IMG/VR virus record: IMGVR_UViG_3300010160_000036
Span: 1 to 64,000 of that record
Reading direction: 5' to 3' (one strand)
Length of the DNA stretch: 64,000 nt
Origin: a virus
Below the pieces are notes generated by a model. It saw only the letters and a list, made by a program, of their open reading frames with translations, was not told the DNA's origin and made no database searches. Positions 51,901 through 64,000 of the stretch are shown piece after piece. The position numbers and the translations under genes are program-made. Each line of letters starts with the position of its first letter. Position 1 is the first letter of the stretch.

Positions 51901-52376
51901 TTCCCGCACTAGTTAATGGTATAGCGACTATTGGTTTAGAAGCTGACAAGAGAACAATTGCTCAAGTCATTGTTAAAAATGGTAATATAACGTTATCATC
52001 CAGTGACTACAATATAGATATTGTTGATACTGCTCCCGTACTGAAAATAACTTCAGGAGTTGCTGAAGGCGATACTGTAACTATTACATTGATTTTGGGT
52101 AATATAATATACTTGGCCGGAGAACAAATTCGTTTTACTACCATTGACTTTGATACTAATACTATCACAGGATTACAACGCGGAGCTAATGGAACTGGTA
52201 CACGAAGCTTTATTCCTGTTTACCAAAAGGTCTATAGCGCATTGTCTCAGGACAGACTACCTGACACTTACTACAATCAAACATGGAATTCATATGTTTA
52301 TAACACTGTATTGGGTGATCCGTTACAGATTAGTAACACTTTCAGCGCAAATTTCTTAAATCAGGACTATGCCTAA
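33939..52376 (+). CDS. Giant baseplate-associated structural protein (6145 aa)
   Basis: One uninterrupted frame covers 18.4 kb, more than a quarter of the window. The N-terminus (TLNFLPEVFQTPTNAQFLGA, then FNQYYWLPTGAPAV near 130) resembles long structural proteins following gp6 in marine T4-like phages, the position of T4 gp7. Visible regions: cupredoxin-like TYTFTVDQ at 185-250; FG-GAP-like repeats about 2346-2925 (for example YYGDTVIIGAPD); GLTRGVNGT motifs near 3640 and 6075. BNR/sialidase-like repeats lie about 4698-4947. About ten copies of a beta module (FxGxxFGxhxxxxxYYVxxI) fall mostly at 3950-5850. No catalytic site is evident. It probably forms outer wedge and host-contact structures; the assignment to gp7 is tentative. 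Confidence 0.7.
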   Translation: MATRIRTLNFLPEVFQTPTNAQFLGATLDQITDQPNTMRIEGYVGSKFGYGINAKDKYVIEPTKTRTDYQLDPAVVFTKTNTATAVDFISYPGIVDAVKLNGGIIDNNDRLFNSQFYSWDPFVDLDKVINFNQYYWLPTGAPAVTVATDIVYNVSDYVVTDLPNGYNISSDVNPSGSTNPSLTFIRGGTYTFTVDQNTAFWLQGKPGVTGYDPAQPNLQTRNILGVENNGASRGVVTFNVPYKNAQDEYNFPGNNLVDVVSTTPFDEINGQLLSYVKNIDGVTALGGRTVLFYNTGVVNETGFVGPFYDTTLYDENGGNAPFVYPGTSIDNNNYNGGYYTDPSATFYLITYVGDPDNPTLKLVPYAPIPTEEKITAVYGTQWKARNFYRNIEGVINLIPYLSSLLDTIYYQDGTSPDKVGVIKLINSNSANQINVNDILGKKNYTAPNGVVFTNGLKVSFAGSIYPTTYKTGEYYVQGVGTAIELLDIATLIAPEPFTAGTYTPYDTLPYDIGNYDSTLYVPVYQDYLTIARNSIDRNAWSRSNRWFHIDVINATAGYLNDPTIVTTYATQNNKAKRPVIEFYPNLQLFNNNIVGKQPIDFFDTRTTDAFTQVAGQLAYYPDVEVYTASTASIASASSATSTTITVLASDVGPVTSIGASIGTFQVGQYITDNAGKLPRNSQISAISGTTTLTLTVTWPYASSFTSATNVSLIANGLPNDDYALYDGAKIVFSVDTNVDVRNKIYIVRFSSIAGSIPVITLTEVEDGLVLPNEGTFTFKGYYNQGMDFYFDGLTWFEAQQKTTINQAPLFDVFDNDGVSFGNNNVYVGSSFKGNKLFSYGIGSGINDLILGFPLRYSSVNNVGDISFDVLINSATFNYVKGIAPITQKVNTGYVHNYSDLSTFSRALGWQTAVAESRQYQVFNFDYVASNPVTTYTCDIAAATNTAWPNIQLYVNNDLQASSTYTYEITEDSTVITFTPPNPLVDTVIEITILSDQVSPTAYYEIPINLQNNPFNTDITTANVGDIRGQYQSIFYNNPDTTGVVFGSNNYRDLGNLVPWGNKIIQNSASLALPGTFLRKQNHNLVDSLQYNSQQYIIFKNLLVNTIDSTDYTYYQLPAVMLDNALDQITSGKIESGPFFWSDMLPNMSAYATNTYTFANSLDVSIYPLTRIYDFTKSNYYGVLVYLTRTVDNFTTTTQLLINIDYTVSTDTPSLTISTDLLPGDIVTIKEYNQTYGSYVPNTPTKLGLYPAFVPEVILDSNYTQPTYFIRGHDGSYNQLYGDYIDGNLVDFRDKVLLEFETRIYNNLKLSDIIPIRDYDVIPGFFRNTGYSYDEVLSIYSQYFLNWIGQNRVEYKPQVGYSSIDQFTYNYSQSGNKIDGSQILQGYWRGIYQYFYDTSEPNTTPWEMLGFTAMPSWWTGRYGAAPYTSDNLVLWKDLAQGINWNNGDPYVLSQFIRPQLLEVIPVDSAGNLLSPFDAIVGNYVERSFKHDWKVGDVAATELSYRRSSTWPFDLMKLLSLTKPAEFYNLGVDVDNYKYNTEFNQFLVNNRSHLVISDVQIYGNGIAKTSYINWIVDYEKQLGVDATTNITNLLANLDVRLAYRLAGFSDKTLLNFYVEKGTPNSTNASLLIPNESYQVLLYDNVPFDKIIYSGVIVQNVGTGWKVFGNSQNNAYFNISVPKINGNYNKVSVEGLSVQIANDYFDNKSQLIPYGTEFNSIHDVAQFIGSYNNYLLNQGVLFDQIESGLAVIWSQMVAEYLYWVQSGWEKGSLINLNPAANIMTINKDSYIVQPLTLQKQNFVLNQNLYPIKSTDLAVVREGTLFTATPLNQGDTVAYGQFNISNFEHGIVFNNVTLFNDIIYNLITGLRQARILTKGVKTADWNGTIDAQGFILNQDNILEWDSITKYTKGSIVLYKNRYWTALQVINASAIFDTKLWKETNYNEIQKGLLPNGSTRSYESTLFYNTNISNLDRDSDILSWSLIGYRPRDYLALADLTDITQVNVYKNMIKQMGTRIAANNFKGVTLLQGGIDYDINDNWAIKTGEFGGVLDNNFVDFRLNQTQLTGNPSTVALTTGDYTDGVEQEVPLYSVFNYSRPLTNPNVLPTLPVDTPNRLYPAAGYVNFNDISVYGYYYNDLNTAQTPLEKLYVGEYVWIADYNGTWQVYTPISNGQLIEVVNNLNGTVTLTFAEPHNLTKYQTIAIINFNAGVNGYRIVQSIIDNNRVTIALNLLASVTRLTGTGIVMRFQSQRVNQPSDINSLPLLNTEFVKNKVWVDTNTDGDWAVYRKSLNYVYDLELLRTGALKFGSAVATTSDLGYLIGDSDLGVAYRYVYDPVFKVFVMRQSITGSESFGSTISYSGNKFAISQPTGALLANRLVKVYDLIVSITQNILQLSQTIQAPTGATNWGSATAFSGDGNWLYISAYEQNSVYVYRKSQVTGLYEYSTIINVLGLVAGDNFSYSLSTNYYGDTVIIGAPDVDTTVDNTGSTYIFERLVQNFESQYNSQPLVPQTFKLVYTPGTTIRTASAIASNAVTLNSVAGLTAGVNGTAIVFTGTVFGSIALNQVYYVKSIVGSTVTLSLTRNGTTLTLTNSSGTMSAVVQTQPLFVSVNGTLITDNNYAVTGTTLNVYQSLIAGDIITSSSSQFVLIETLVSPDNLTIGEQYGYSLDTNTYGTEILVGSPFQLNSQNQEGAVYRYTDGGGKYGIITGLLDCQVSTPTTILINGYVVDIPLGNATIVANSIASANITNVTATTQNGKLVISTISNELAYVNDKLNIVTLSAHDFYQLGISKYQLTQTINDPHSQGRTQFGTTIKFNESSSFVVSSPVSTRYEETTFDASDDANYNNDTLFDNNTTQFLDTYTNAGAVYMFDYVSNYDENLNNVGQFVYAQNVNAFDLDYGAQPYYGTALDFNNNQVVVGTPNFRPNINNGQVIIYQNATGVQDWSVYRNSTPIVDVNAIQNAQLYSASTNNTLINLDYIDPLQGKLLGAVAENIDITSNRDPAAYNGPNSTNTSSIVWGAKHVGKLWFDTSTTKFVNYHQSNDVVYNSKWWGQVFPGSSPVVCSWISSNVLPTNYAGPGTVKDVNEYTIEYTLNTTGAIVPVYFYWVRNTNIVFTQLGKTLSDTICESYIANPLTTGISYFAPLLPNAFGLYNTMDYVNNTDTVMHVGFATGTNDDVSHSAYSLIRENTDDFLPGLPGTPGVTYPKSLYNRMLESMSGVDESGAVVPDPNLPKPVQSGILVRPRQSFFYDRFGALKNYLTTANEILAKYPYNETSYSTFLNTSGAVNPSTVGNPNWSGAEELFYNTQDYWTPINWWAIGYNDNTRPAMMVQSYYDLATLNAQNGLIVTVAKNGQGLQETYKYDIIINDWVRIGLQNGTIQFKSSLWDYATARLGFGDNFFDTTPFDTYPSEETRYIVRALNEEMPTELGFFKNEGLILLFNYIISETIESQNYLPWLNKTSFVDVSHTIRELLPLKIFQSDNQDFLSGYINEVKPYHVVIKDFLFRYTGLDLWRGNVTDFDLPATYNTNLQKYITPELVYTNPSQDNQYLPTDPIWQTPPYVEWFNNHGLSITGVNNYPITTLASYLTLNSIDMVVDNVYGFPVDSVIQIGEEQIAYSGVDRAYGLLTGLTRGVNGTPVTNHIPGEQIITDLPAVLLLNGGRGYTEPPKVTAYIDTTVFPAPTRAAILQPVMNLDTILRIDVVDPGEGYVELPQILIEPSAIITFPSSYVDLSNDTVIIQSQLLRTGDLIRYSVGANTTPIGGLKQGEYYYISVLETIPNFVISFYTTYVGALKDQDRVNLLNGGSGSNNYIAISARASCVSTAIPIRENQITLRFDRTSYTSQVQDWAPNNFYGSFYAGVFRNTTQVASSGLTLESSAPPIDSILASAQGAPFYLQDVSNNHVVDWSSRTRIVTNTSNTGYITIAPSEGGTPLEGYVGPTTGFYIGMPIKFTGAKFGGLVVGTVYYISAINGLTQFKLVDGVGNPVVLTTETAPVAGLTAMIGEVSNTAVVTIDYPGILPVTTTQSATNYVISPLLSGSQGGTAGFYQGISLFFTTNSTGNYQTFGNIVENETYYVTTVINSTTFTMSTSNNPINLTATQVYGTGDYVKLSTVSSLSINDPIIFTAMYIVGSSVSNFGGIIAGQVYYVASIDYSTNRITISNTVNGGNVNLSDVAAATNTYCTMTDQKDTVKLTTATGNITMNVGLPISPGQITGQKFTFYKTSGNYINGGAGYTGTVSNLVTRITVATTATSNYLYLNQLYGGTTHMYVNMPFKVTANIGNLIAGTTYYVKSLGTISVDISSSSSSTNLYTAANTTGFYVGMPIIFTGGIFGNVKPLVTYYIKSLPDSTHFSISEYLGGPTFILSGNNGLMTVSANDPYITVSSSLGGSTFALANSTTVTTLTQYVTSTPTFYVSYKLGGYSVTTHTAGSGFAYNNNITLLGTNFGGTTPLNDVIINVSGIGTTGEITSTIISGTPAELAKQYYLKVISDTQLEVYENALMTIPVDGTILAIEYAAGDYVFLPEPFYFNQSIVKYNNKVWQCIVSNSDAEFILGKWELMDSGSRRLNALDRIVGYYQPTVNMPGLDLTQLVSGIIYPNNTYLDNAFPPADEYPLDTLLSDQPFYPTSINNMAITWDGVKYVGGANSPTYSSAIISENSINWAIDKIADSPVSITSIKYVSGLYGSGLYVITTANSATPIYISQDGIQYATSGGAYIPYDSTAYSITPYDFSSLKVESTLLNSVDYFNNIWVAVGENIVASTDSYFWGEVYKLPYPGVLRSVHYVNNPGFTGWLAVGNWTIGNTTSSVILSSDDGFVWTQINEGITTIITSATLNVVYSSNDLIIFAGANGKLFSNASPASYTQQTTNVVTGLNDVIYADGVYVVVGDNGTIITSTDTITWTTRVSTTTNNLNGITYDVVNNRFVVVGDNNTILTSINAGVTWILSSVYTVDPTVYTVQGDAFTSGYGPEELVPGVVSDNLTMIVNTRPGTNWNVGEYGHTGFNVVSTQITPNTLTQTQYSFLNIVQNPATIAIYDLDLSTGLSVRTFNFTVDWVNKIITLTNYLAVNHQLVIDLYEVGNGDQLEKSNSQVVPFIDDVGTGFTEIPLNCNYSASRFNGSGVIRPGTGPTEILCTSTRALDNSILCASTTDFVLNQSIMFQGDVLGGLELDTDYYVKTISLITNRITVSASTVDGLAGPAYVLTDDTGSMEAIIISAIDLAWTDPIVLHNGNILNFGHQTIATQTKSLTNSIVCNTTGEFYPGDIVTFSDEIAVIPVGNFLYTTGLTPQYQYTILSIIDDNEFTVEDPANLGNALTLSDSTGIAICIVGDYAFAEETNGITAKLVFATQYNQNDDFVQFTVFGETQPQQYGYSIPLTQLYTAQGGETQLALENYVGGDNADNAIVEKNGLRLINISDYTISYATGFIYLNSSLAPNDVLAITTYNLTDRQYLNTTYGGTFAGSSTAILNIVATTHQSAFDELVVAGHFLTGVQYQIVSVGTTDFTSIGASSNTVGVIFTATGLGTGTGTAGVGWGDHFSPSPDYLTLGSGDTSALVTNLAVVFSAPTIGGIVANKYYYISTIIDSTTFSISETVSGPTFSLITDFGSMSGYINPAIVANITNIENTITAPAQVTTCSQTYFGTNVIDCANIPLGSAGLNVIFKGTSFGNIATDGTVYIVDTVVSATSFTIKDEYGDPVVLSDDTGSIVAYIGGTPAVTVYTGIPHGLQENNIVRINGVTGSVQLNNNTYYAKIVNITTIELYYAPYDPTLNYTNSPVTGVGAYTGGGYVWLDKTFTLTITNGTSTSSTGNKITVNSTRNLELNTPVYFTGNVTGTNLVIGTKYYIKEISSLTEFTVSTTYDGAVFVLANATVSFGVSEWEQSNVDRIWVTVNGYRIPSSSLYINPNNNLSILHTISPGDAVIITNMIPTSTPNELTYILNVTKDSIPSVFRANSLTTTWLTRTLQYTDSIIYVEDVSKLTNTIVQIDTVPALVNGIATIGLEADKRTIAQVIVKNGNITLSSSDYNIDIVDTAPVLKITSGVAEGDTVTITLILGNIIYLAGEQIRFTTIDFDTNTITGLQRGANGTGTRSFIPVYQKVYSALSQDRLPDTYYNQTWNSYVYNTVLGDPLQISNTFSANFLNQDYA

Positions 52377-52532: not shown

Positions 52533-53153
52533 ATGTCAGGAATACAATTAACATATAAAATTGAGGGTTTTATTAAAATCCACGATCCCAACACAGGGGA
52601 AGTTCTAGTGGACAAAAAGAACGCTATCAATTATGAAAATATGTCAGAAGCTATTGCTGACACACTAAGCAGTCGTGGTTACGGAGAAATTTATCAAATG
52701 GCGTTTGGGAACGGTGGTGCAAGCGTAGATGAAACAGGCGTTATCACATATCTACCCCCAAACACAACTGGTCAAAATGCTGCACTATACAATGAAACCT
52801 ACGCTAAAATCGTTGACGATACTAGCGTTTTCAACTTAGATCCTACACGTAACAAAATGACGGTTTCACACACTGTTGGTACTGTGTATACAGACATTTT
52901 AGTACAGTGTTTGTTAGATTACGGTGAGCCAGCAGGGCAGGCAGCGTTTGACAATAGCACTCAAACTGATTCTAGCTATATCTTTGATGAACTAGGATTA
53001 TTAGCAAATTACGGAACAGACAACGCAGGAAATGTCATCACACGACTATTAACTCATGTTATTTTCCACCCAGTTCAAAAAAGCTTGAACAGACAGATTC
53101 AAATTGATTACACCGTCAGAATTCAGGCGCTAACAAACTTAGTTACAATCTAA
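52533..53153 (+). CDS. Conserved virion structural protein (206 aa), baseplate/fibre module
   Basis: The protein opens with YKIEGFIKIHDPNTGEVLVD, a motif seen in fibre- and baseplate-associated proteins of marine myoviruses. It continues with YGEIYQMAFGNGGASVDETG, YIFDELGLLANYG and ends QIQIDYTVRIQALTNLV, a beta-rich pattern without enzyme motifs. It directly follows the 47-residue protein with which it shares the N-terminal motif. Probably an outer baseplate or fibre-connector component; the specific T4 counterpart (gp8, gp9 or gp10 region) is not determined. Confidence 0.6.
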   Translation: MSGIQLTYKIEGFIKIHDPNTGEVLVDKKNAINYENMSEAIADTLSSRGYGEIYQMAFGNGGASVDETGVITYLPPNTTGQNAALYNETYAKIVDDTSVFNLDPTRNKMTVSHTVGTVYTDILVQCLLDYGEPAGQAAFDNSTQTDSSYIFDELGLLANYGTDNAGNVITRLLTHVIFHPVQKSLNRQIQIDYTVRIQALTNLVTI

Positions 53154-53183: not shown

Positions 53184-54401
53184 ATGGCATATACAATAGT
53201 TAAAAGTGATGGAACAGTATTAACTACTATCGCTGATGGAACAATTAATACTACTAGCACCTCTTTAGGGTTGCCTGGTAGAAACTACGCAGGGTATGGT
53301 CAGCAATTAGATACTAACTTTGTGCACCAAATAGAAAATTTTGCGTCAACAACCCCGCCAGCAAACCCTCTAAGAGGTCAGTTATGGTATGATATCAACA
53401 ATACCTTGTTGAAATTATGCCCAACTGACGGGACTTCAAACGCTAATGCCTGGATAACTATTGCAGTTAGTTCTGGAACATCAACCACAACATTTGGTTC
53501 TGTCAACGTAACCGGTAATTTGACTGCAAATAACGTTATTGCTGTTAATGGTTTATACGGAGACACAATCACTGTTCGTTTAGCTACAGTAACATCACTT
53601 GCAACTATTGCAAACGCTAACATTACTACAGCAAACATTGGTACATTAAACACAGCAGTTATTAACGCTGGAGTAGCAAACACAACGACAGGTACATTGA
53701 CTGGTACATGGACAGCAAACGGTGGCGCATCCGGTAACACATTCATTGTTACTAACGGTAACTTAGTCGCTATCACCGGTATCAAAACAGATAACTATTA
53801 CTATGCTAATGGTGGCCCGTTCAATCCAACCGGTACATACACAAACGGTAACGTTTTTGACTATCTAACTGGTGCAAATGCAATCGTTCAATTTACTGGA
53901 AACATTGCCCCTACAAAAATTACAACAACTAATATTACTACAGGAAGTAATGTTACTAGTGGTACAATGACAGGCAACTTCACATTGACAGCAGGTTCAC
54001 GATTTAACGCAACATATGCTGACTTGGCAGAACGATTTGAAGCAGATGCATATTATGATGCAGGAACTGTAGTTGAAATGGGCGGAGACAAAGAAATTAC
54101 TGCGGTGCAATACGAACTGTCAGACGATGTATTTGGTGTTGTATCTGATACAGCAGCCTACTTGATGAATGCCGGCGCCGGTGACGACAGTACACACCCG
54201 CCAATCGCAGTTGGTGGCCGTGTTAAAGTTAAAGTAACTGGTAAAGTTAAAAAAGGTCAACGTTTAGTTTCTGCTGGTAATGGCATCGCACGTGCAGCCA
54301 AACTAGGGGAAGCAACAGCATTCAACATCATTGGTCGTGCATTGGAACACAAAACAACAGATGATTTGGGTATTGTGGAAGCATTCGTTAAAATAAATTA
54401 A
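53184..54401 (+). CDS. Tail-fibre-like structural protein (405 aa)
   Basis: The N-terminal part (about 1-110) has GLPGRNYAGYGQQLDTNFVH and PLRGQLWYDINNTLLKL, typical of fibre/collar proteins of marine myoviruses. Residues ~110-275 are a Thr/Asn/Ala-rich beta repeat region. The C-terminal domain begins FNATYADLAERFEADAYYDA (about 275-294) and contains VGGRVKVKVTGKVKKGQRLV and a GRALEHK segment; this domain is widespread at fibre C-termini and is beta-rich. Likely a fibre or fibre-tip protein; receptor not predictable. CGGAG and a late motif precede the start. Confidence 0.65.
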   Translation: MAYTIVKSDGTVLTTIADGTINTTSTSLGLPGRNYAGYGQQLDTNFVHQIENFASTTPPANPLRGQLWYDINNTLLKLCPTDGTSNANAWITIAVSSGTSTTTFGSVNVTGNLTANNVIAVNGLYGDTITVRLATVTSLATIANANITTANIGTLNTAVINAGVANTTTGTLTGTWTANGGASGNTFIVTNGNLVAITGIKTDNYYYANGGPFNPTGTYTNGNVFDYLTGANAIVQFTGNIAPTKITTTNITTGSNVTSGTMTGNFTLTAGSRFNATYADLAERFEADAYYDAGTVVEMGGDKEITAVQYELSDDVFGVVSDTAAYLMNAGAGDDSTHPPIAVGGRVKVKVTGKVKKGQRLVSAGNGIARAAKLGEATAFNIIGRALEHKTTDDLGIVEAFVKIN

Positions 54402-54411
54402 GGGATAATAG

Positions 54412-55365
54412 ATGAGCTACGCACAATTTCAAACAATAGCAGCCGCAGACTTTAACGGTCTAGTTGGTGCAAACCCCGGAAGTACGGCAAACGTGTTAAA
54501 CACTGTTTGGGCAACAGGTTCTGTAGCAGCCGGGTATGGACAAACTGCTGAGGGAAATGTTGCAGTGGGTGATACCATTACTGCTATCAAGTGGGCTAAC
54601 TTAGTTAATAAAACTGCAAGCGCAGCAACACACCAAGGGTCAAGTATTACTGCTGTTAGTGCCCCGGTTACAGGTGGAACAATTACATACCTGTCAGCTA
54701 TCCCAACTAACTTAACTACAATTTATTCTAATAAGGCAAATGCTTCACCTGCACACAGTACAACAACTGCTAACACAGCTACTACAGTAGCTACTTGGAC
54801 TGACATTGCAACATTTACTCATACCGTTACATTCGCTAACGGTGATGCTACTCGTTATTTCTTCAACTCAGGTGGACAATTAGCAGTTACTGTTGCACAT
54901 CCTTCAGGAACTGGTATCAATTTGCTTTTAAACAATTTATGTTCAAATGTTGGTACAGTGGTATTAAGCTCACCTGTATCTGGTACAGCAAGTATTGCAG
55001 GTACGTCTTACAACGGTGTGACACGTATAGGTGGAGGTGGCAATGCTCCAACTATTGCTACTAACACTGGATATTATGCATTGACAACAGCCAATGCAAA
55101 CGTTTATTATCAAACTGCATCAACTGGCCCGGCTGGTTACCTATCAACTAACATTAATATCTTTATTAAAACTAATGGTACAGTTGGGTCAAACGGTGAC
55201 GTAGGTAACATTGTGACCATCACTACGGTTTGGGATGAAATTCCAAACGGGTTAATAGTCGCATCTGGTTCTACTACTACTGTTACAGCTAGGGTCCCGG
55301 AAACAACCAACTTAGCCAACAGTTGGGGAACTATTTCCCTAGCAGGCTCTGTAACACAATCTTAA
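54412..55365 (+). CDS. Fibre-associated structural protein (317 aa)
   Basis: The N-terminus (FQTIAAADFNGLVGANPGST, then VWATGSVAAGYGQT and IKWANLVNK) is a conserved structural-protein segment in cyanophage-type myoviruses. The rest is Thr/Ala/Ser/Gly-rich and predicted beta, including ATRYFFNSGGQLAVTVAHPS (about 145-164) and a C-terminal Ig-like-looking domain. No enzyme motif is visible. It starts ten bases after the previous gene with an AGGGA ribosome site, so it is cotranscribed with the fibre-like protein. Probably a fibre or neck decoration component. Confidence 0.6.
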   Translation: MSYAQFQTIAAADFNGLVGANPGSTANVLNTVWATGSVAAGYGQTAEGNVAVGDTITAIKWANLVNKTASAATHQGSSITAVSAPVTGGTITYLSAIPTNLTTIYSNKANASPAHSTTTANTATTVATWTDIATFTHTVTFANGDATRYFFNSGGQLAVTVAHPSGTGINLLLNNLCSNVGTVVLSSPVSGTASIAGTSYNGVTRIGGGGNAPTIATNTGYYALTTANANVYYQTASTGPAGYLSTNINIFIKTNGTVGSNGDVGNIVTITTVWDEIPNGLIVASGSTTTVTARVPETTNLANSWGTISLAGSVTQS

Positions 55366-55390: not shown

Positions 55391-55398
55391 CTAAATAC
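55391..55398 (+). promoter_or_regulatory. T4-type late promoter motif CTAAATAC heading the modification operon
   Basis: CTAAATAC lies 16 bases before ATG 55415, with AGGAG between. No further gap longer than eight bases occurs between genes up to the right edge, so this motif could drive the whole operon. Confidence 0.6.
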
Positions 55399-55414: not shown

Positions 55415-55720
55415 ATGGATACCAAGACCTTAATTGCTGATGCAAAAGCCAGATTTAATCACAACAGTGCCAAAGCACAATTAAAAGACAAATATGATGG
55501 TAAGTTTATTGTTGCCGATCAAGGAGGACTATGGAAAGCCAATTTAGAAATCATTACTATCCTTAGTTCTTATGATGAAGATGATATTATATTAATAGAC
55601 AATTTTGATAATCCGGTTAAAGTTAACCGCATTGAGTTACTAACTAAATTAAAAATTACATATAAATCTGTAATGGAAACATGGTATACTGAATGGAAAG
55701 AAATAGAGTCTAATCGATGA
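55415..55720 (+). CDS. Small conserved marine-myovirus protein (101 aa)
   Basis: The protein begins MDTKTLIADAKARFNHNSAK and contains GKFIVADQGGLWKANLEIIT and ETWYTEWKEIESNR. I recognise this as a widely conserved small protein of T4-like marine phages, with no assigned function. It is charged and soluble. It has a strong AGGAG ribosome site and is the first gene after the late motif; its stop overlaps the start of the first glycosyltransferase-like gene by four bases. Confidence 0.6.
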   Translation: MDTKTLIADAKARFNHNSAKAQLKDKYDGKFIVADQGGLWKANLEIITILSSYDEDDIILIDNFDNPVKVNRIELLTKLKITYKSVMETWYTEWKEIESNR

Positions 55721-56517
55721 ACAGAGGCGCAATATTATTTGCGTTCAACTCGCCAAAGTTTGATTACTATAAAATGGCAGTTGCTACTGCAAAAAGAATC
55801 AATCACTTTTTAAATATTCCTGTTACTGTGGTGACAGATGAAAAGTCCATCACGGACCAAACATATGTATTTGATAAAGTAATTACGATGACACCTGATC
55901 TTAATAACATACGTGAGGGATCTATTTGGATTAATAAAGGTCGTTATCAAGCATATGATTATTCACCGTATGATGAAACATTATTATTAGATACAGACTA
56001 TATGGTCAACTCAAATAAGCTGTTACAAGTATTTAATTATTATGATGATTTTTGTTGTCATGATACAACTAGTTTTCTAATGCAGCCCGGAGTACCACAA
56101 GAGATTCTTAGTGCATATAGTTTTAAAACATTATGGGCTACTATTGTTGCATTTAAAAAAACAAATAGAGCTAAACAAATATTTGAATGTTTAGAAATGA
56201 TTCAAAAAAACTATGATCACTATTGTAATCTACATAGTTTTGTAGGCGGTGTATATCGCAACGATTACGCATTGACATTGGCACTTAGAATTGCGAATGG
56301 GCATTCGGATAATAAACAAGATATTATTCCTTGGAATTTAATTCATGTGGGTAAAAACACAAGCATATATAAAAACTTCAATTATGAGTTTAACACTGAA
56401 TACACAGTTATGTATGATAATTGGCAACGTGGTAAAATTCGTAAAGAATATATTACTATCAAAGACATGGACTTTCATGTAATGAATAAATTAAACTTTA
56501 TGGAGCTTATAACATGA
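55717..56517 (+). CDS. GT-A-type glycosyltransferase-like protein (first)
   Basis: The 266-residue protein opens with a Rossmann-like GAILFAFNSPKFDYYKMAVA, followed by NIPVTVVTDE. It has the signature SPYDETLLLDTDYMV with a DxD metal/nucleotide-sugar site at D92-T-D94. The closely related next protein shares the SPYDET-xxL-x-x-D pattern. Donor and acceptor are unknown. As part of a late-type operon directly after fibre genes, it may glycosylate virion proteins. It overlaps both neighbours by four bases. Confidence 0.65.
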   Translation: MNRGAILFAFNSPKFDYYKMAVATAKRINHFLNIPVTVVTDEKSITDQTYVFDKVITMTPDLNNIREGSIWINKGRYQAYDYSPYDETLLLDTDYMVNSNKLLQVFNYYDDFCCHDTTSFLMQPGVPQEILSAYSFKTLWATIVAFKKTNRAKQIFECLEMIQKNYDHYCNLHSFVGGVYRNDYALTLALRIANGHSDNKQDIIPWNLIHVGKNTSIYKNFNYEFNTEYTVMYDNWQRGKIRKEYITIKDMDFHVMNKLNFMELIT

Positions 56518-57275
56518 CCAAAGGTTTTGTAATTATGGCACAGGATACTGAAAAAGTCAGTTATACGAAATGTGCTGAAATGTTAAAAAAATCTATATTA
56601 AGCGTGATGGCGGGGGCTAATGTAACTATCATCACAACTGATATGCTACCCCACGGCGATCAAGCACCTGGTAGTAATTGGAAATTAATCAATGATTGGC
56701 AAGTATATGAAGCTAGCCCATATGATGAAACAATTAAATTAGAAGCAGATATGTATCTACCGCGTAATATTGAACACTGGTGGAATATATTGTCAATTAA
56801 CGATGTAAATATTTGCACGACTATTAGAAACTTTAAAGGTGAGATTTCTCATAACAGAGGGTACAGAAAGTTCATTGATGATAACAACTTACCTGACACT
56901 TACAATGCTATCACTTACTTTAAAAAGTCAGATACCGCAGAACAGTTCTTTGGTATTGTTAGAGATGTGTTTGAAAATTGGGAAGATTATAAGACAATAA
57001 TGAAATGTAATCCACAGGAAGAAGCAACAACTGATTGGGTATATGCCATAGCAAGTCATATTGTTGGTGTAGAGAAAACCACTCTTCCCGGCTTTACCGA
57101 ATTTTGTATGACACACATGAAGCAATTCATTAATGACATGCCCACTGAGAATTGGACAGACACATTAGTATATGAATGTTTTCCTGATATGATACGCATC
57201 AACACTTGTCCACAGTCTTACCCACTTCACTATCATGTTAAGAGCTTTGTTGATATAATAGGAGAACAAGTCTAA
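56514..57275 (+). CDS. GT-A-type glycosyltransferase-like protein (second)
   Basis: The 253-residue protein parallels the preceding one: VIMAQDTEKVSYTKCAEMLK, then ANVTIITTD, then YEASPYDETIKLEADMYLPR with E77-A-D79 at the DxD position. The first acidic residue is Glu rather than Asp, so activity or metal use may differ. The C-terminal half is Trp/Cys-rich and not recognised. It appears to be a diverged duplicate of the upstream gene. It overlaps the previous gene by four bases and the next by one. Confidence 0.58.
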   Translation: MTKGFVIMAQDTEKVSYTKCAEMLKKSILSVMAGANVTIITTDMLPHGDQAPGSNWKLINDWQVYEASPYDETIKLEADMYLPRNIEHWWNILSINDVNICTTIRNFKGEISHNRGYRKFIDDNNLPDTYNAITYFKKSDTAEQFFGIVRDVFENWEDYKTIMKCNPQEEATTDWVYAIASHIVGVEKTTLPGFTEFCMTHMKQFINDMPTENWTDTLVYECFPDMIRINTCPQSYPLHYHVKSFVDIIGEQV

Positions 57276-57610
57276 TGGAACACGTACTTATTTGGGAACC
57301 CAAACCAATACCTAAAGTTGAATTTAGATTATATTATGACGACAAGGGTAAAGTGATATGTTATTCCGGAGAGCAATTAGACGGTAATTATATCATTATA
57401 GATGCCGCAACATATGCAGAAGGTCGCCCTGATATAAGGATTATTGATGGTAAAATATCAAAAGCATCTACAAGTGCAATAGTTACTAAGTTAATTGCAA
57501 ATGATGTTGAAGGGATTGAGTGTGCATTTGAAGATGTAAGCATAGTGATTGATAGTAGTTATATTGGTAAAAAACAAAAATGGAAGTTAGATATACATGA
57601 GCTTGGATGA
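57275..57610 (+). CDS. Unknown protein in the modification operon (111 aa)
   Basis: No family assigned. The protein is beta-rich with a readable pattern KVEFRLYYDDKGKVICYSGE (about 14-33), then LDGNYIIIDAATYAEGRPDI (about 36-55). It has no signal peptide, membrane segment or cysteine cluster (two cysteines only). Similar small proteins neighbour glycosyltransferases in marine phages as I recall. It could be an accessory or substrate-presenting factor of the operon; this is speculative. It is coupled to both neighbours (one-base overlap before, 14-base overlap after). Confidence 0.5.
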   Translation: MEHVLIWEPKPIPKVEFRLYYDDKGKVICYSGEQLDGNYIIIDAATYAEGRPDIRIIDGKISKASTSAIVTKLIANDVEGIECAFEDVSIVIDSSYIGKKQKWKLDIHELG

Positions 57611-58550
57611 TATTATTGACGTAGCAGACTTGGACTGCATTTATCTAAGTTATGATGAGCCACAAAAAGAAGAATTTTGGCTTAAAGTAAAGAACATGGT
57701 GCCTTGGGCAAAGCGTGTTGATAATGTTAAAGGTAGTGACGCAGCACACAAGGCTGCAGGTGAAGCAAGTGATACAGAACGATTTATTCTAATTGATGGT
57801 GACAACATGCCAGAAGAAAGTTTCTTCAACATTCAGTTAGACTTTACAACTAAAGACGAAACATTTAGAAAAGCACAGTTTAGATGGAAAGCAATTAACA
57901 GTATCAATGGCTTGCGCTATGGTAATGGTGGTATGAGCAGTTGGACAAAGACTTACGTGCGTGAAATGCAAACGCATGAGCATCAAACGGAGGGTGATGT
58001 TTCACGTATAGCTGACTTTTGTTTAGACAGCAAAGATAATCTATATTGGGCGATGCATGATTGTTACAGTACAACATATCCTAACTATACAAGTTTTCAA
58101 GCATGGCGTGCAGGTTTCCGTGAAGGTGTTAAAATGAGTTTGAATCGAGGCGTGCGCCCAACGGTAGATGAATTCAAAGAAACAGTTGCAAGCAGAAATT
58201 TAAATAATTTGACCATCTGGCAGAACGTGGGAATAGATGTAGAGAACGGTGAGTGGGCGATCATGGGAGCACGTATGGGAACTCATATGACTATGCTAAC
58301 TGATTGGGACGTACATAATGTTCAATGGTTTGATAACTATCCTGCAATGTGGGAAACAGTTAAAGATGAAGACCCACTAGAACTATCAGAATCATATGGT
58401 GTTGAACTAAGTACCAAACTAGGACTACCTATGTGTGTGTTAGATAGAGAACAAAGTAAATTCTTTAAACGTCATTATGGATCAAACTTTCATAACAAAG
58501 GTCCATTAGTAACTGAGATGGAAGTGATTCGTAAGATTGAAGGTTGGTAA
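57597..58550 (+). CDS. GT-A-type glycosyltransferase-like protein (third)
   Basis: The 317-residue protein contains VPWAKRVDNVKGSDAAHKAA (about 35-54) followed by SDTERFILIDGDNMP, with the DGDN motif (D67-G-D69-N70) expected of a nucleotide-sugar and metal site in the GT-A fold. Further conserved parts include GGMSSWTKTYVREM (about 118-131) and FQAWRAGFREGVKMSLNRG (about 173-191). It differs from the two upstream glycosyltransferase-like proteins and is probably of a separate family. The acceptor is unknown. Its stop and the next start share one base (TAATG). Confidence 0.6.
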   Translation: MSLDDIIDVADLDCIYLSYDEPQKEEFWLKVKNMVPWAKRVDNVKGSDAAHKAAGEASDTERFILIDGDNMPEESFFNIQLDFTTKDETFRKAQFRWKAINSINGLRYGNGGMSSWTKTYVREMQTHEHQTEGDVSRIADFCLDSKDNLYWAMHDCYSTTYPNYTSFQAWRAGFREGVKMSLNRGVRPTVDEFKETVASRNLNNLTIWQNVGIDVENGEWAIMGARMGTHMTMLTDWDVHNVQWFDNYPAMWETVKDEDPLELSESYGVELSTKLGLPMCVLDREQSKFFKRHYGSNFHNKGPLVTEMEVIRKIEGW

Positions 58551-59212
58551 TGCAATTATATGATCCATCTAAGAAAGGTACAATCGTAGTTGGACATATG
58601 CGTTCAGGTTCTCAATATTTATTGAGTCTAGTTAAACTAGAATTGCAAAAAAATAATGTTGAATTTGATGACAACGGAGAATACTTTAAAGATATATTCA
58701 GTGCCATTAGATATACTGATAATAGTTACTCATTCTTAAATGTTATTGACAAAATAAAAGAACAGGACATTGGTACTAATTATAGTGTGGGTACTATTGT
58801 CTATCCTAATAGCTTAGATATGATTAGTCAGCATAAGTCAAATTATAATTATTTTTCTAATAATTATCATCTTATTAAAATGATTAGAAAAGATGTTATG
58901 GCACAATTTATGTCATACATGATATTTATTGAATCAAAGGCACTACATAGCGGTATAAAATCAATAGACGAAGTTAAAATAAATACTCCTTATACAGCAG
59001 GCAGAATTCATATAATATATTATTTAAATAAACTATTAGAATTGGACAGATTTAAGACTGATACAACTATATACTATGAAGATTTACCGCACTTACCCAC
59101 ACCAGGTCTAACAAAAAATAATTATAATATGACTCCTAAAGAATTTTTTAAAAATTACGATGATATTGCAAATCAAATTAACGAATTAAATATAACACAT
59201 TATGAGCGGTGA
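58550..59212 (+). CDS. Sulfotransferase-like P-loop protein
   Basis: The 220-residue protein has an N-terminal GTIVVGHMRSGSQYLLSLVK (10-29) resembling the 5'-phosphosulfate-binding loop of PAPS-dependent sulfotransferases. A later YHLIKMIRKDVMAQFMSYMI segment corresponds to the 3'-phosphate-binding Arg/Ser region. The rest is Tyr/Asn/Ile-rich and helical. If active it would transfer sulfate from PAPS to a glycan or protein tyrosine. I chose ATG 58550, overlapping the previous stop by one base; a TTG six bases upstream is less likely. Assignment is by motif only. Confidence 0.55.
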   Translation: MQLYDPSKKGTIVVGHMRSGSQYLLSLVKLELQKNNVEFDDNGEYFKDIFSAIRYTDNSYSFLNVIDKIKEQDIGTNYSVGTIVYPNSLDMISQHKSNYNYFSNNYHLIKMIRKDVMAQFMSYMIFIESKALHSGIKSIDEVKINTPYTAGRIHIIYYLNKLLELDRFKTDTTIYYEDLPHLPTPGLTKNNYNMTPKEFFKNYDDIANQINELNITHYER

Positions 59213-60767
59213 ATACGATCAATTCGCTAGAGATATGCGTGACCGCTTGAATGCGGTAAGTCCATCACTATGTCTTGCTAAGTGGCAACAAGTTTCTATA
59301 CACTTACCTAGTGGATTGACACAGAGTTGCTATCACCCACCTACTCATAAAATACCTCTAGAGTTATTGAAAGATAAGCCTAGCGTATTACACAACACCC
59401 CAATTAAAATACATGAACGTAAGCAAATGCTTGAGGGAAAAAGACCTGAAGGTTGTAGTTATTGCTGGAAAGTAGAAGATGCTAAGAGTGATGATCCTAA
59501 AGGTCATATGAGTGACAGACATTATCGTAGCAGTGAATGGTGGAATGCACCCACATTTGAAGAAGTAACTCAAAACAAGTTTGATTATGATGTTGTCCCT
59601 CGATATGTAGAAGTTAACTTTAATCAAGCATGTAACTTTAAGTGTATGTATTGTAGTCCTCATCTTTCTAGTAGTTGGGAAGAAGAGGTTAAAAAGCACG
59701 GTGGTTATCAATTAACCGGTATGATACATAATAACTTAGAAGCATTAGAACAAAAAGGAATGATGCCACTCAAGGTTGCAAATAAAGACAACCCCTATGT
59801 TGAAGCATTCTGGCAATGGTTTCCTGAAATCTATCGCAAATTACGGGTGTTCAGAATGACAGGTGGCGAGCCACTTATGGACAAAAACACATTCAAAGTG
59901 TTAGATTATGTAAATGAAAATCCTCATGGTCAACTTGAAGTAAGTATAACAAGTAATATGTGTCCGCCGGATCAAAAATTGTTTGATAGGTTTGTGGATA
60001 AAGTCAAAGCACTAGAAGAACTACGTACCTACGAAGATAAAGAAAACTTCAATGTACATAGCGGTAACAACTGGTATGTAGACAAAGGATTCAAGCACTT
60101 TTGGTTGTTTGTATCATTAGACGGCTTTGGTGAGCAAGCAGAATATATGAGAACTGGATTAGAGTTCGAACGCATGTTGAATAACGTTAGAACTTTCTTA
60201 CGTGAAACAAAATATTCTACTGTGAGTTTTATTAACACATTCAATATCATGTCTATACCAAGTCTGCACAATTTCCTAGCTATGGTTTTAGAATTACGGG
60301 CAGAGTTTGGTGGAAGAAGCCAAGTTGAGTTTGAGATTAGTCCTGATCAAACTGAGACTGAAAAAGAGAACAACATTGTTCACAAAGTTTATACCCAAAA
60401 AAAATATCAACGTGTATTCTTTGATATTCCAATACTAAGATATCCACCTTGGTTCAACATTCAGAATGCAGGACTATATGGTATCGATGAAGTAGAACGT
60501 TGTCTAAAGTATATGGAAGACAACGTACAAGGTGATGACTATCTGGAAACATTTGAGGGATTTAAACCGTATGAGATATTGAAAATTAAACGAGACCTTG
60601 CTATAATGAAAGAATCTCTACCTCAAGATCAATTACTACTAAATAAAAAGAACTTCTATATGTTCATCACTGAATATGATAGACGCAGGCAGACTAATTT
60701 TATGGAAACGTTTCCGGAACTAAAAAGTTACTGGAGAGAATGTATCAAAGCACACACCAAACATTAA
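59202..60767 (+). CDS. N-terminal-twitch radical SAM protein 1
   Basis: The 521-residue protein has the radical SAM cluster motif C144-N-F-K-C148-M-Y-C151 and the SAM-binding T220-GGEPL. Before the core lies a Cys-containing module: CLAKWQQVSIHL, SCYHPPTHKI and MLEGKRPEGCSYCWKVED. These cysteines could bind an auxiliary iron-sulfur cluster as in SPASM/twitch enzymes, but at the N-terminus. The C-terminus has EYDRRRQTNFMETFPEL, a motif repeated in the next protein. Such enzymes do radical chemistry on peptides or sugars; the substrate here is unknown. It overlaps the sulfotransferase-like gene by 11 bases. Confidence 0.82.
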   Translation: MSGEYDQFARDMRDRLNAVSPSLCLAKWQQVSIHLPSGLTQSCYHPPTHKIPLELLKDKPSVLHNTPIKIHERKQMLEGKRPEGCSYCWKVEDAKSDDPKGHMSDRHYRSSEWWNAPTFEEVTQNKFDYDVVPRYVEVNFNQACNFKCMYCSPHLSSSWEEEVKKHGGYQLTGMIHNNLEALEQKGMMPLKVANKDNPYVEAFWQWFPEIYRKLRVFRMTGGEPLMDKNTFKVLDYVNENPHGQLEVSITSNMCPPDQKLFDRFVDKVKALEELRTYEDKENFNVHSGNNWYVDKGFKHFWLFVSLDGFGEQAEYMRTGLEFERMLNNVRTFLRETKYSTVSFINTFNIMSIPSLHNFLAMVLELRAEFGGRSQVEFEISPDQTETEKENNIVHKVYTQKKYQRVFFDIPILRYPPWFNIQNAGLYGIDEVERCLKYMEDNVQGDDYLETFEGFKPYEILKIKRDLAIMKESLPQDQLLLNKKNFYMFITEYDRRRQTNFMETFPELKSYWRECIKAHTKH

Positions 60768-60775
60768 GGAATAAA

Positions 60776-62299
60776 ATGGCAGGCAAGAAACACGAAGAAT
60801 CATTTGCACAATATAAATCACGACTTATTGACCCAATTAGTGACAGTTATTGTGCCGCTAAATGGTTGAATGCTACAATTTGGCTAGGTAACGGACAAAC
60901 TACTAGTTGTCATCACCCATTAGGTCATCAAATTGACGCAAAAGAATTACTCACAAATCCGTCTGCAATTCACAATACGCCGCACAAGAAACTAATGCGT
61001 AAGATGATGCAGGAAGGTCAGCGCCCTCAAGAATGTGAATATTGCTGGAAGATTGAAGACATTGGTCGGGATAACATGAGTGACCGTGTTTATAAAACTG
61101 CTGTATTCGAAGAATCAGATATTCTTAAAACTGCTACCGCTGATTGGCAAGAGAATACGATGTTAAAAACATTAGAGATTTCTTTTGATCGTACTTGTAA
61201 TTTTGCTTGTTCATATTGCAACCCTTCGTTTAGTACAACATGGGTTAAAGACATTCACAAATTTGGCCCATATCGTAACATTGACGGTGATGCACGTAGT
61301 CACTTTATTAATGAAGCTGACCATGCTAAACCACTACCGGAAGATATTAACCCATACAGTCAAGCGTTCTGGCGTTGGTGGGAAGAAGGTCTTGCAGACA
61401 ATTTAGAAGAAATTCGCATTACGGGTGGTGAACCACTTATGGCTCCCGGTGTTTGGAAGTTGTTTGAGTGGTTTCGTAATAACCAAGAACGGGCGATAAA
61501 TCGTCCAGATGGTAAGGTATTGCGCTATGCTATCAATAGTAACTTAGTTCCTAAAGATGATATTATGGACAAATTGATAGAGTACAGTCAGTTTGTTCCT
61601 TACATGGAAGTCTATACAAGTTGTGAATCATTTGGTGCTCATGCTGAATACATTCGTGATGGACTTGATTGTAACAAATGGATTCATAACTTAGGTAGAT
61701 TACACACTGAAGGTAATATTAAAAAGACACACATGATGATGACTATCAACAGCTTGTGTTTGGCTAGCATTGTACAATTTATGGACCAGATGATGGAATT
61801 TAAAAAGATTCATAATACAGTTTATCCCACAATGAGTTTGAACATCTTGCGTTTCCCTAGCTTTCAAAGTTGTGCTATGCTGCCAACAGAGATTCGTCAG
61901 AAATATAAAGACCTGCTACAAGTATGGTTAGACAATCAGATTGCTATGGATTTCCGCACTACTGATGGTAAACAAATGTTTATGAGCATTGAACGTGAAC
62001 AAACACAACGATTGATTGACTACCTTGACGTTATCAAGACACCACACAAGAATGTTAAAGACATTGAACAGAATCGTAGAGACTTTAAGCAGTTCTATGC
62101 TCAGTATGATGTCCGTCGTGGTAAAAGCTTCCGTAATACTTTCCCACCAGAGTTTGTTGCATTCTACGATAGTATTCAAACAGAGTTACCAACGGCGGAT
62201 GAAATCATCACACAGAATTATCGTCAAGGGGTTGATTTAATCCCTGATCATCCACCGGAAGATCCTAGTAAAGATGTATTCTTTAACCCAGATTTATAA
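60776..62299 (+). CDS. N-terminal-twitch radical SAM protein 2
   Basis: The 507-residue protein is a close paralogue of the preceding one: core C141-N-F-A-C145-S-Y-C148, T216-GGEPL, N-terminal module CAAKWLNATIWL, SCHHPLGHQI and MQEGQRPQECEYCWKIED, and C-terminal QYDVRRGKSFRNTFPPE. It therefore has both the SAM cluster and a likely auxiliary cluster. I chose ATG 60776 because TAAGGA lies just upstream; an ATG at 60740 lies inside the previous gene. The divergence between the two paralogues suggests different substrates or successive steps rather than simple dosage. Confidence 0.82.
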   Translation: MAGKKHEESFAQYKSRLIDPISDSYCAAKWLNATIWLGNGQTTSCHHPLGHQIDAKELLTNPSAIHNTPHKKLMRKMMQEGQRPQECEYCWKIEDIGRDNMSDRVYKTAVFEESDILKTATADWQENTMLKTLEISFDRTCNFACSYCNPSFSTTWVKDIHKFGPYRNIDGDARSHFINEADHAKPLPEDINPYSQAFWRWWEEGLADNLEEIRITGGEPLMAPGVWKLFEWFRNNQERAINRPDGKVLRYAINSNLVPKDDIMDKLIEYSQFVPYMEVYTSCESFGAHAEYIRDGLDCNKWIHNLGRLHTEGNIKKTHMMMTINSLCLASIVQFMDQMMEFKKIHNTVYPTMSLNILRFPSFQSCAMLPTEIRQKYKDLLQVWLDNQIAMDFRTTDGKQMFMSIEREQTQRLIDYLDVIKTPHKNVKDIEQNRRDFKQFYAQYDVRRGKSFRNTFPPEFVAFYDSIQTELPTADEIITQNYRQGVDLIPDHPPEDPSKDVFFNPDL

Positions 62300-63696
62300 T
62301 GACAAACAAAATAATCCCTGTATGGGAACACGCTAAGCCGCACAAAGATAGTAAGAACAAGGTGTTCTGTATGGCACCTTGGACTCATACTTATATCAGT
62401 CCGCAATCTGAAAGACGATTGTGCTGTGCCTCACGTGAAGAACACTCATTTCAAAAACAATATATTGATAGTAGTAACGATTCAAAGTATGGAACTGTTA
62501 CTGAAAGTAAGACAGCACTAGATGACTACCAACCAGTAAGTTTAAAAGAACACTGGAATAGTGAATACATGAAAGACATTCGTGTGAAGCTAATGCGCGG
62601 CGAAGAGATTCCTCAATGTGATGTATGCAACAAGAACTTGTTGATGGAAGGTTATAGTTATCGTGGCTGGTTTACCGGCACCCTATTCAAAGATAAGATA
62701 GAAGAAGCTTTTGATAAGACAGATGACACTGGTTATACAACAATGGAACCAATAAGTTTTGATTATCGCTTTAGTAATCTATGTAACTTTAAGTGCCGTA
62801 TGTGCGGTGAGCAATTATCTAGTTCATGGGAAACTGAAAAGAAAGTAAATAATCTTTGGAACGAAAAGAATCAACCATTCATGATTCCTGAAATCAAATC
62901 AGCAATGAAAACTTTCCAAGAAGAAGTTGTTGAAGTTGAATTTCGTGATGCAGTAAGTCGTGGCATTGTAGAAGAAATGTATTGGGTCGGTGGTGAGCCA
63001 TTAATGTACGATATTCACTGGTGGACACTAGAAGAAATGTTAAAAAATGGTTCTTCTAAGAATTGCTACATGCGTTATAATAGTAATTTAAGTCGTGTTC
63101 AATTTGGTCAAAAGAATCTGTATGATTATCTTCCATTGTACAAAGATTGGATGATGTGTGCTAGCATTGATGGTACAGGCGAGATTGTAGAATACATTCG
63201 CACGGGTATCAAGTGGGACAAATGGCTTGAAAATTTTAAGAAAGGTCTAGAACTACCCAATGGCAAAGACAAGATGATACTTGACTTGACATTAACCGCA
63301 CCCGGTATGTTCTCGCTTAAAGAGTTGTTTGACTTGAGTATTGAGTTAGATGTTAAAATTGAAACTAAAACGACATTTGGCTTTCATGCTGATATTATGT
63401 GGACCCCATTAAGTTGGCCACGTGAAATATTAGACGAAGTGATTGATGATATCCTTGCATATATTACACCACGCGCTACTTGGAAGCAAGCAACATTAAT
63501 TGGTAACTTAGAAGCACTAAAGAATACACGTAAGACACATGAAGAAGAATGGCCTGATACTTATAAGCAAGCCGCATTGAACGGCAAGAATTGGGTCAAG
63601 AGATTAGAAAGTATCCGTGGAGATACAGATGTTACAATGCGTAGTATATACAGTCGCAATTCAAAACTATTGCAATGGTGGGACAACATAGGATGA
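62299..63696 (+). CDS. N-terminal-twitch radical SAM protein 3
   Basis: The 465-residue protein has C162-N-F-K-C166-R-M-C169 and V230-GGEPL. Its N-terminal Cys module reads CMAPWTHTYIS, RRLCCASRE and MRGEEIPQCDVC. It is more distant from proteins 1 and 2 and lacks their C-terminal YDxRR motif, ending instead in SIYSRNSKLLQWWDN. It is translationally coupled: one-base overlap with the previous gene and a four-base overlap (ATGA) with the next. Function is inferred at class level only. Confidence 0.82.
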   Translation: MTNKIIPVWEHAKPHKDSKNKVFCMAPWTHTYISPQSERRLCCASREEHSFQKQYIDSSNDSKYGTVTESKTALDDYQPVSLKEHWNSEYMKDIRVKLMRGEEIPQCDVCNKNLLMEGYSYRGWFTGTLFKDKIEEAFDKTDDTGYTTMEPISFDYRFSNLCNFKCRMCGEQLSSSWETEKKVNNLWNEKNQPFMIPEIKSAMKTFQEEVVEVEFRDAVSRGIVEEMYWVGGEPLMYDIHWWTLEEMLKNGSSKNCYMRYNSNLSRVQFGQKNLYDYLPLYKDWMMCASIDGTGEIVEYIRTGIKWDKWLENFKKGLELPNGKDKMILDLTLTAPGMFSLKELFDLSIELDVKIETKTTFGFHADIMWTPLSWPREILDEVIDDILAYITPRATWKQATLIGNLEALKNTRKTHEEEWPDTYKQAALNGKNWVKRLESIRGDTDVTMRSIYSRNSKLLQWWDNIG

Positions 63697-64000
63697 GTAA
63701 TACATTATGCGTATTACCCTGGATGCATCTAGCAACACATCCAAACGGGGGCGCAAGCCTCTGTTGCCGTAGCAACCACACAGACGCAGTTAGTTGGGCA
63801 AAAAAATCTAACACACATAATCTTGTTATGTTAGATAACGATAGTGTGGAAGATATAATGAACAGCGAGAAGTTCGTTGAAGTTAGACAAGCAATGATTG
63901 ATGGTAAACGACCTGTTGAATGTGAAGGTTGTTGGAAAGATGAAGATGCTGGCATTAAAAGTAAACGCCAGTACGAGAATGAGCGTTGGGCACACATTAT
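63693..64000 (+). CDS. N-terminal-twitch radical SAM protein 4 (cut by right edge)
   Basis: The first 102 codons are present and open to the window end. They encode the N-terminal Cys module of this family: CVLPWMHLATHP, GASLCCRSNH, then MIDGKRPVECEGCWKDEDA. The module closely matches those of the three preceding genes, so a fourth radical SAM enzyme is expected although the CxxxCxxC core lies beyond the edge. It starts within the stop region of the previous gene (ATGA overlap). Confidence 0.75.
   Translation, partial: MSNTLCVLPWMHLATHPNGGASLCCRSNHTDAVSWAKKSNTHNLVMLDNDSVEDIMNSEKFVEVRQAMIDGKRPVECEGCWKDEDAGIKSKRQYENERWAHI

Follow-up and report, generated by a model that had tools for sequence, protein, structure and literature searches.

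Why would a virus carry at least eleven intact radical S-adenosylmethionine (SAM) enzymes in one operon, far above the expected need of a phage, and what would they act on? The question is raised by the right end of a 64,000-base stretch of viral DNA (the window), which comprises bases 1 to 64000 of the 76,352-bp IMG/VR record IMGVR_UViG_3300010160_000036 (G000 in our analysis). An earlier note on the window had seen a pathway there, expressed late, that builds or installs an unusual modification during virion assembly. The operon proved to be pathway-like and tied to a fibre gene; the virion location of its product is the part that we infer. Our confidence is evenly balanced on the reading that we favour, in which the operon encodes a soluble, phage-encoded line for assembling and tailoring a glycan on the phage's own fibre.

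The operon and its enzymes

The record derives from a large, uncultured, T4-like tailed phage, with portal (phrog_213), major head protein (phrog_138), SbcC/D (gp46/47), and late sigma factor families, as well as baseplate and prohead protease genes. As the note had described, ten genes follow the fibre genes on the + strand from 55415, each overlapping its predecessor by 1-28 nt. Extending the sequence rightward, as the note had proposed, yielded further genes: the operon spans ~20 kb from 55415 to the last base of the record (76352), which ends inside it. Beyond the window lie six further radical SAM enzymes of the N-terminal-twitch family N_Twi_rSAM, a separate radical SAM enzyme with a C-terminal SPASM domain, three SGNH hydrolases, and a carbamoyltransferase gene of which only the start is present, so that the operon in the record totals ten N_Twi enzymes plus the SPASM enzyme. 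The features are as follows, with record coordinates for those beyond the window:

52533-53153, + strand: f206, structural-region protein (phrog_11259), kept across relatives; opens the conserved block
53184-54401, + strand: f405, spike/fibre protein with a C-terminal Peptidase_G2 (intramolecular chaperone) domain
54412-55365, + strand: f317, conserved Ser/Thr-rich (26%) fibre-like protein with no database name; candidate acceptor
55392-55397, + strand: TAAATA element, late-promoter-like, 18-23 nt ahead of the first operon start codon
55415-55720, + strand: a101, small conserved protein, first gene of the operon
55717-56517, + strand: GT1, predicted GT8-like glycosyltransferase with an LDTD motif
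56514-57275, + strand: GT2, GT8-like GT-A glycosyltransferase by predicted fold
57275-57610, + strand: b111, small protein between GT2 and GT3
57597-58550, + strand: GT3, predicted divergent GT-A-fold enzyme with a DGD motif; the most conserved gene of the block apart from the radical SAM genes
58544-59212, + strand: ST, P-loop sulfotransferase-like at the level of motifs; accessory, missing in most relatives
59202-60767, + strand: R1, N_Twi radical SAM (NF033640, E 3e-84) with CNFKCMYC, GGEP, and N-terminal Cys
60740-62299, + strand: R2, N_Twi radical SAM (NF033640, E 4e-86)
62299-63696, + strand: R3, N_Twi radical SAM (NF033640, E 2e-89)
63675-64000, + strand: R4, N_Twi radical SAM, incomplete at the window edge; 398 aa in the full record
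from 64868: R5, N_Twi radical SAM
from 66145: R6, N_Twi radical SAM
from 67322: R7, N_Twi radical SAM
from 68628: R8, N_Twi radical SAM
from 69959: R9, N_Twi radical SAM
from 71212: C-terminal-SPASM radical SAM
from 72381: SGNH hydrolase
from 73112: SGNH hydrolase
from 73945: R11, N_Twi radical SAM
from 75334: SGNH-like protein
from 76155: carbamoyltransferase, cut by the record end

The radical SAM assignments were confirmed. Against a curated cut-off of 170 bits for NF033640 (N_Twi_rSAM), the three complete enzymes in the window scored 283-300 bits (E 1e-84 to 1e-89) and the R4 fragment 101 bits (E 7e-29), bearing out the four radical SAM enzymes of the note; relatives score up to 424 bits. 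The CX3CX2C and GGEP motifs and four N-terminal cysteines are intact in all ten N_Twi enzymes of the record, which thus retain both catalytic and auxiliary cysteines. Identity between pairs of the ten is only 21-30%, which, with the motifs intact, indicates that the set expanded long ago rather than by recent duplication. All three features are likewise kept in 456 of 472 full-length phage copies at related loci, where the number of copies per record goes up to 21. In a FastTree phylogeny, R1, R2, R4, R8, R9, and R11 grouped by position with their counterparts in other phages with good support, and R3, R6, and R7 did so less clearly. These positional clades suggest distinct conserved steps. 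To our knowledge, no substrate is known for any member of the family.

Pfam names none of GT1-GT3, ST, a101, or b111, and the three glycosyltransferases (GTs) of the note were upheld by profiles and predicted structures instead. GT1 aligns with GT2, and the two match a glycogenin profile (E 2e-4). The AlphaFold2 model of GT2 (mean predicted local distance difference test score, pLDDT, 95.2) retrieved glycogenin and LH3 in Foldseek (E 1e-6). Both proteins have the DxD-like motif and, as predicted, the glycogenin-type GT-A fold expected of GT8 enzymes, with full-length template modelling (TM) scores of just 0.4-0.5. The GT3 model (pLDDT 86.3) retrieved SunS, TarP, and WrtF at E values of about 1e-3, and the best neighbours in the PDB and among viral proteins were mostly of the GT-A kind, at low TM-scores. 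By these models, GT1 and GT2 resemble GT8 enzymes, and GT3 is of the GT-A type but divergent.

The sulfotransferase-like protein of the note held up in part: ST has the RSGSxYL and RKDxxxxxxS loops (P-loop and 3'-loop motifs), but it gave no Pfam match at E 0.1, no PDB match, and no assignment by a curated sulfotransferase profile. Elsewhere, a 651-aa phage protein at locus L041 combines, in a single chain, an N_Twi radical SAM with a domain bearing sulfotransferase motifs. At two other loci (L066, L071), unrelated GT7-type galactosyltransferase-lectin proteins (E 1e-20) stand directly ahead of the radical SAM array, and accessory genes within arrays encode UDP-Glc/GDP-Man dehydrogenase, GDP-Man dehydratase/epimerase, NeuB, carbamoyltransferase, and methyltransferases. 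Together, the predicted GT folds, nucleotide-sugar genes, GT7 replacement, and sulfotransferase-motif fusion support glycan building as the likely business of the operon.

Linkage to a fibre gene

Searching IMG/VR for relatives of R3 gave 88 candidate stretches, of which 80 loci were kept. The block f405-f317-a101-GT1-GT2-small gene-GT3-R1-R2-R3 recurs among them down to about 30% identity, and its spike-to-GT3 part (spike-f317-a101-GT1-GT2-b111-GT3) is kept in dozens of phages. Wherever upstream sequence sufficed, f317 lay at most three genes upstream of GT1 (35 of 36 loci, the exception being a contig edge) and a101 lay immediately upstream of it (36 of 36); GT2 and GT3 followed within three genes of GT1 in 39 loci. 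The module therefore travels as a unit in the co-occurrence check that the note had suggested. The note had also looked to genes carried apart from fibres as evidence against itself; the 35 loci speak for a unit, but some arrays have no fibre gene within 10 kb.

To avoid selecting on the radical SAM, we also chose phages by capsid protein alone. All six that were inspected have the f405-f317-a101-GT1-GT2-b111-GT3 block, followed by anything from one radical SAM copy (L252, L254) to at least five. In addition, all nine capsid-selected records of at least 80 kb contain N_Twi copies above the cut-off, ranging from 1 to 17. In L252, L253, and L257, non-orthologous radical SAMs occupy the array, with identities to R1-R9 of only 20-36% against 42-89% for f317 through GT3, indicating that the array is replaced as a cassette.

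This invariant tie to one fibre gene makes f317 a concrete acceptor candidate. The note's fibre genes upstream of the operon were confirmed by the Peptidase_G2 domain of f405 and by the conserved f317 itself, and GT genes next to virion structural genes are the arrangement looked for in virion glycosylation. Serine plus threonine average 24.6% in the f317 family (12.1% across all open reading frames, ORFs), charged residues are few, and the family alignment has an RxFFNxGG motif. Divergence of f317 tracks that of a101, GT1, GT2, and b111 (rho 0.85-0.90) more than that of GT3 and R1-R3 (0.46-0.67).

Several other observations concern the surroundings of the module. Between the baseplate and fibre genes, a single 6145-aa ORF (33939-52376, +, 18.4 kb) encodes a giant structural protein, and a 1278-aa protein with no PHROG match adjoins the portal gene (11725-15561, -). 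No Rfam elements were found in 50-64 kb. In a 250-kb relative, the operon closes with a full carbamoyltransferase and a 1310-aa PPYIYVFG-repeat protein, relatives of which end the operon at several other loci; at L246 (4638-8570) this protein consists of about seven FDFSWxPDP..PPYIYVFG repeats followed C-terminally by a GT3-like part, and has no Pfam or PHROG match. A 605-aa protein inside the N_Twi array of L253 (8602-10419) resembles B12-binding radical SAM enzymes. One 303-kb record (G033) has a second radical-SAM-rich region (L258, 285000-303057) besides its fibre-linked module at 174-190 kb.

N_Twi genes also occur in bacterial contigs. Five contigs from metagenome-assembled genomes (MAGs) of Betaproteobacteria, Verrucomicrobia, Pelagibacter, Rickettsiales, and Rhodobacteraceae (L176, L178, L181, L192, L227) bear the phage module; they are probably phage rather than bacterial and were left out of the bacterial neighbourhood analysis. 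In that analysis, neighbours of N_Twi genes include SGNH, GT2-type, and carbamoyltransferase genes at modest enrichment. SGNH genes account for 7 of 84 near bacterial N_Twi genes and are absent from the top matches listed for 68 distant genes, a difference that is suggestive but statistically not strong. An Elusimicrobia MAG (G042; L175, L179-L198, L226) has 72 reported N_Twi_rSAM matches, many in tandem arrays and fused to long N-terminal TPR-like repeats, in proteins of 600-1200 aa.

Timing, proposed pathway, and rival readings

The note had placed the operon behind a late-type motif, and this was true in a restricted sense. The exact T4 late promoter, TATAAATA, showed no enrichment (4 occurrences against 10.5 expected) and does not occur at the operon; it was rejected as the operon's promoter and the shorter TAAATA was used. 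Of 24 gene starts examined visually, 10 have TAAATA upstream (chance ~3% per 75-nt window), and in this clade it stands 9-27 nt ahead of a101 in 17 loci, where a sigma-70 promoter is absent. By contrast, a sigma-70 promoter that departs from consensus at two positions or fewer is present in 19 loci of distant clades, and in ten of them it is a perfect TTGACA-17-TATAAT (background 0.57% for at most one mismatch and 3.9% for at most two; near-identity among some of the loci lowers the number that are independent). TAAATA accompanies the sigma-70 promoter in just one of these 19, although the fibre genes retain it in most of them. As judged from these elements, the enzymes are probably late in the G000 clade and probably early, or driven by the host polymerase, in distant clades. 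Lateness thus probably stands for the former and not for the latter, where the promoter type goes partway towards the early expression that the note had named as evidence against itself. Enzymes made early and fibres made late would still be consistent with modification of the virion, but the promoter split also sustains a remodelling of the host surface.

Sequence and models show which genes the operon contains, their intact motifs and synteny, the GT folds, the replacement of the array, and the promoter elements. From there, we infer an acceptor, an order of steps, a chemistry, and an effect on host recognition. GT1, GT2, and GT3, aided by a101 and b111, would attach a short glycan to f317, encoded directly upstream. 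The N_Twi enzymes would then work on this glycan serially, each using a SAM-derived radical and its N-terminal auxiliary Fe-S cluster to alter one C-H position, possibly by oxidation, epimerisation, or deoxygenation. Substituents may be attached or trimmed by the SGNH enzymes, the sulfotransferase-like protein, and the carbamoyltransferase. A stable fibre/GT core with a swapped radical SAM array would diversify the surface chemistry of the receptor-binding structure. We hold more tentatively that a modular viral radical SAM line edits fibre glycans and that its swappable array, from 1 to about 20 enzymes, serves as a post-translational means of diversifying host recognition. If so, the glycans on the fibres of aquatic phages would rank among the most heavily tailored known, which would matter in natural waters for adsorption and host range.

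Several observations weigh against a fibre glycan. Some phages have R1-R2-R3 with neither GT1 nor f317 within 10 kb, bacterial N_Twi enzymes are found far from any phage, and a sigma-70-type promoter drives the operon in distant lineages. The case for f317 as acceptor, and for a product on the virion, is circumstantial: f206 tracks f317 as well (rho 0.82), indicating that physical linkage may partly explain the covariation, and fibre shafts in general are often rich in Ser/Thr and poor in charge.

The main rival, which we consider unlikely, is that the enzymes alter the O-chain or capsule of the host during infection, blocking superinfection or re-adsorption to debris. This has been proposed in print for the GTs of the pelagimyophage host recognition cluster (PMC7029224). 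The sigma-70-type promoters of distant lineages permit early expression; nucleotide-sugar enzymes, SGNH hydrolases, and carbamoyltransferases also belong to polysaccharide clusters; and SGNH, GT2-type, and carbamoyltransferase genes stand beside bacterial N_Twi genes. However, the products include no polytopic flippase, polymerase, ligase, prenyl-phosphate transferase, or clear membrane protein, and the linkage to f317 is near-obligatory, with a late element in the G000 clade. In 21 products no hydrophobic membrane segment was found (Kyte-Doolittle 1.6), which, unlike O-antigen conversion, fits a cytosolic acceptor.

Less probable still is that the radical SAMs have the fibre polypeptide as their substrate, introducing crosslinks or epimerised or hydroxylated residues, with the GTs acting separately. 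This would be a maturation of a structural protein akin to that of ribosomally synthesized and post-translationally modified peptides (RiPPs). Most solved SPASM/twitch radical SAMs do modify peptides, SkfB is among the family's profile matches, and a structural gene accompanies the operon. Yet the twitch sits N-terminally, the partners are sugar enzymes (including the sulfotransferase-motif fusion), and Pfam and NCBIfam scans found neither a precursor gene, as the note had already remarked, nor a PqqD-like recognition domain (RiPP recognition element); the overlapping genes also leave no intergenic room for a precursor. With neither precursor nor recognition element in these scans, we did not adopt the RiPP reading as our first choice. 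Hypermodification of nucleotides or DNA, with the radical SAMs editing a base that the GTs then glycosylate, is highly improbable: T4-like phages do glycosylate DNA and the radical SAM locus of KVP40-group phages has QueC-like and NAMPT-like genes, but the GTs here are of GT8, GT7, and GT-A types unrelated to DNA glucosyltransferases, the operon is linked to fibres rather than replication genes, and the accessory genes are carbohydrate decorators.

Comparison with known systems

What appears to be new here is the fibre-linked GT/radical SAM module; the abundance of radical SAMs in such phages was already published in 2017 and 2020. Nishimura 2017 (PMC5332604) reported 12 radical SAM genes, with Fe-S assembly genes besides, in a 183-kb T4-like genome, TARA_ERS488813_N000010, treating them as Fe-S metabolism and drawing no GT or fibre link; the A-type Fe-S carriers that we found above cut-off in 10 of 25 related records agree with that study. 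Zaragoza-Solas 2020 (PMC7029224) described both GTs and radical SAM cassettes in the host recognition cluster of pelagimyophages, assigning the GTs to a proposed modification of the host O-chain. Fibres, GTs, and radical SAM cassettes share one T4-like region here too, but that paper gives the cassettes one sentence, without the invariant fibre-GT1-GT2-GT3 core, ordered array, N-terminal twitch, or promoter types. In the mycobacteriophage Maravista, two putative GTs were proposed to act on virion proteins (PMC11256854); the abstract does not mention radical SAM, sulfo, carbamoyl, or SGNH tailoring such as the operon here encodes. Searches with phage radical SAM phrases gave no matches in the open-access literature, nor did we find the fibre-linked module described there, and our claim to priority is limited to that literature.

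Among enzymes, there is a likeness to the cyclitol dehydrogenase BtrN and other sugar-acting twitch radical SAMs, which also join a radical SAM core to a twitch auxiliary-cluster domain. The N-terminal 70 columns of the family profile match the C-terminal twitch of BtrN, such that the twitch segments align and the domain order is permuted, and at least 10 paralogues occur in one operon here. Gtr systems for O-antigen conversion differ in having a polytopic flippase and a membrane-bound, acceptor-specific GT, with no such proteins among the 21 products.

Searches of isolated phages with R1, R3, GT3, and a101 returned nothing or weak Vibrio matches alone, and a consensus-like radical SAM query reached Vibrio phages at 20-23% identity. 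KVP40-group phages have two N_Twi radical SAMs, which in phi-pp2 neighbour a GT52-like gene and the gene for a protein of 48% Ser/Thr annotated "cell wall mannoprotein", while Vibrio phage K566 has four, with two GT8 genes, one GT4-like gene, and a Ser/Thr-rich gene. Vibrio natriegens phage QD01, whose host strain is Vmax, likewise has two N_Twi radical SAMs and a "cell wall mannoprotein" gene. These clusters differ from ours in being short and in lacking detectable relatives of GT3 and a101, and KVP40-type loci, phi-pp2 included, have QueC-like and NAMPT-like genes in addition. Still, they place two to four N_Twi radical SAMs near GT-type and Ser/Thr-rich genes in cultured phages. We regard them as leads rather than proof, and they make the question of the N_Twi radical SAM substrate directly testable.

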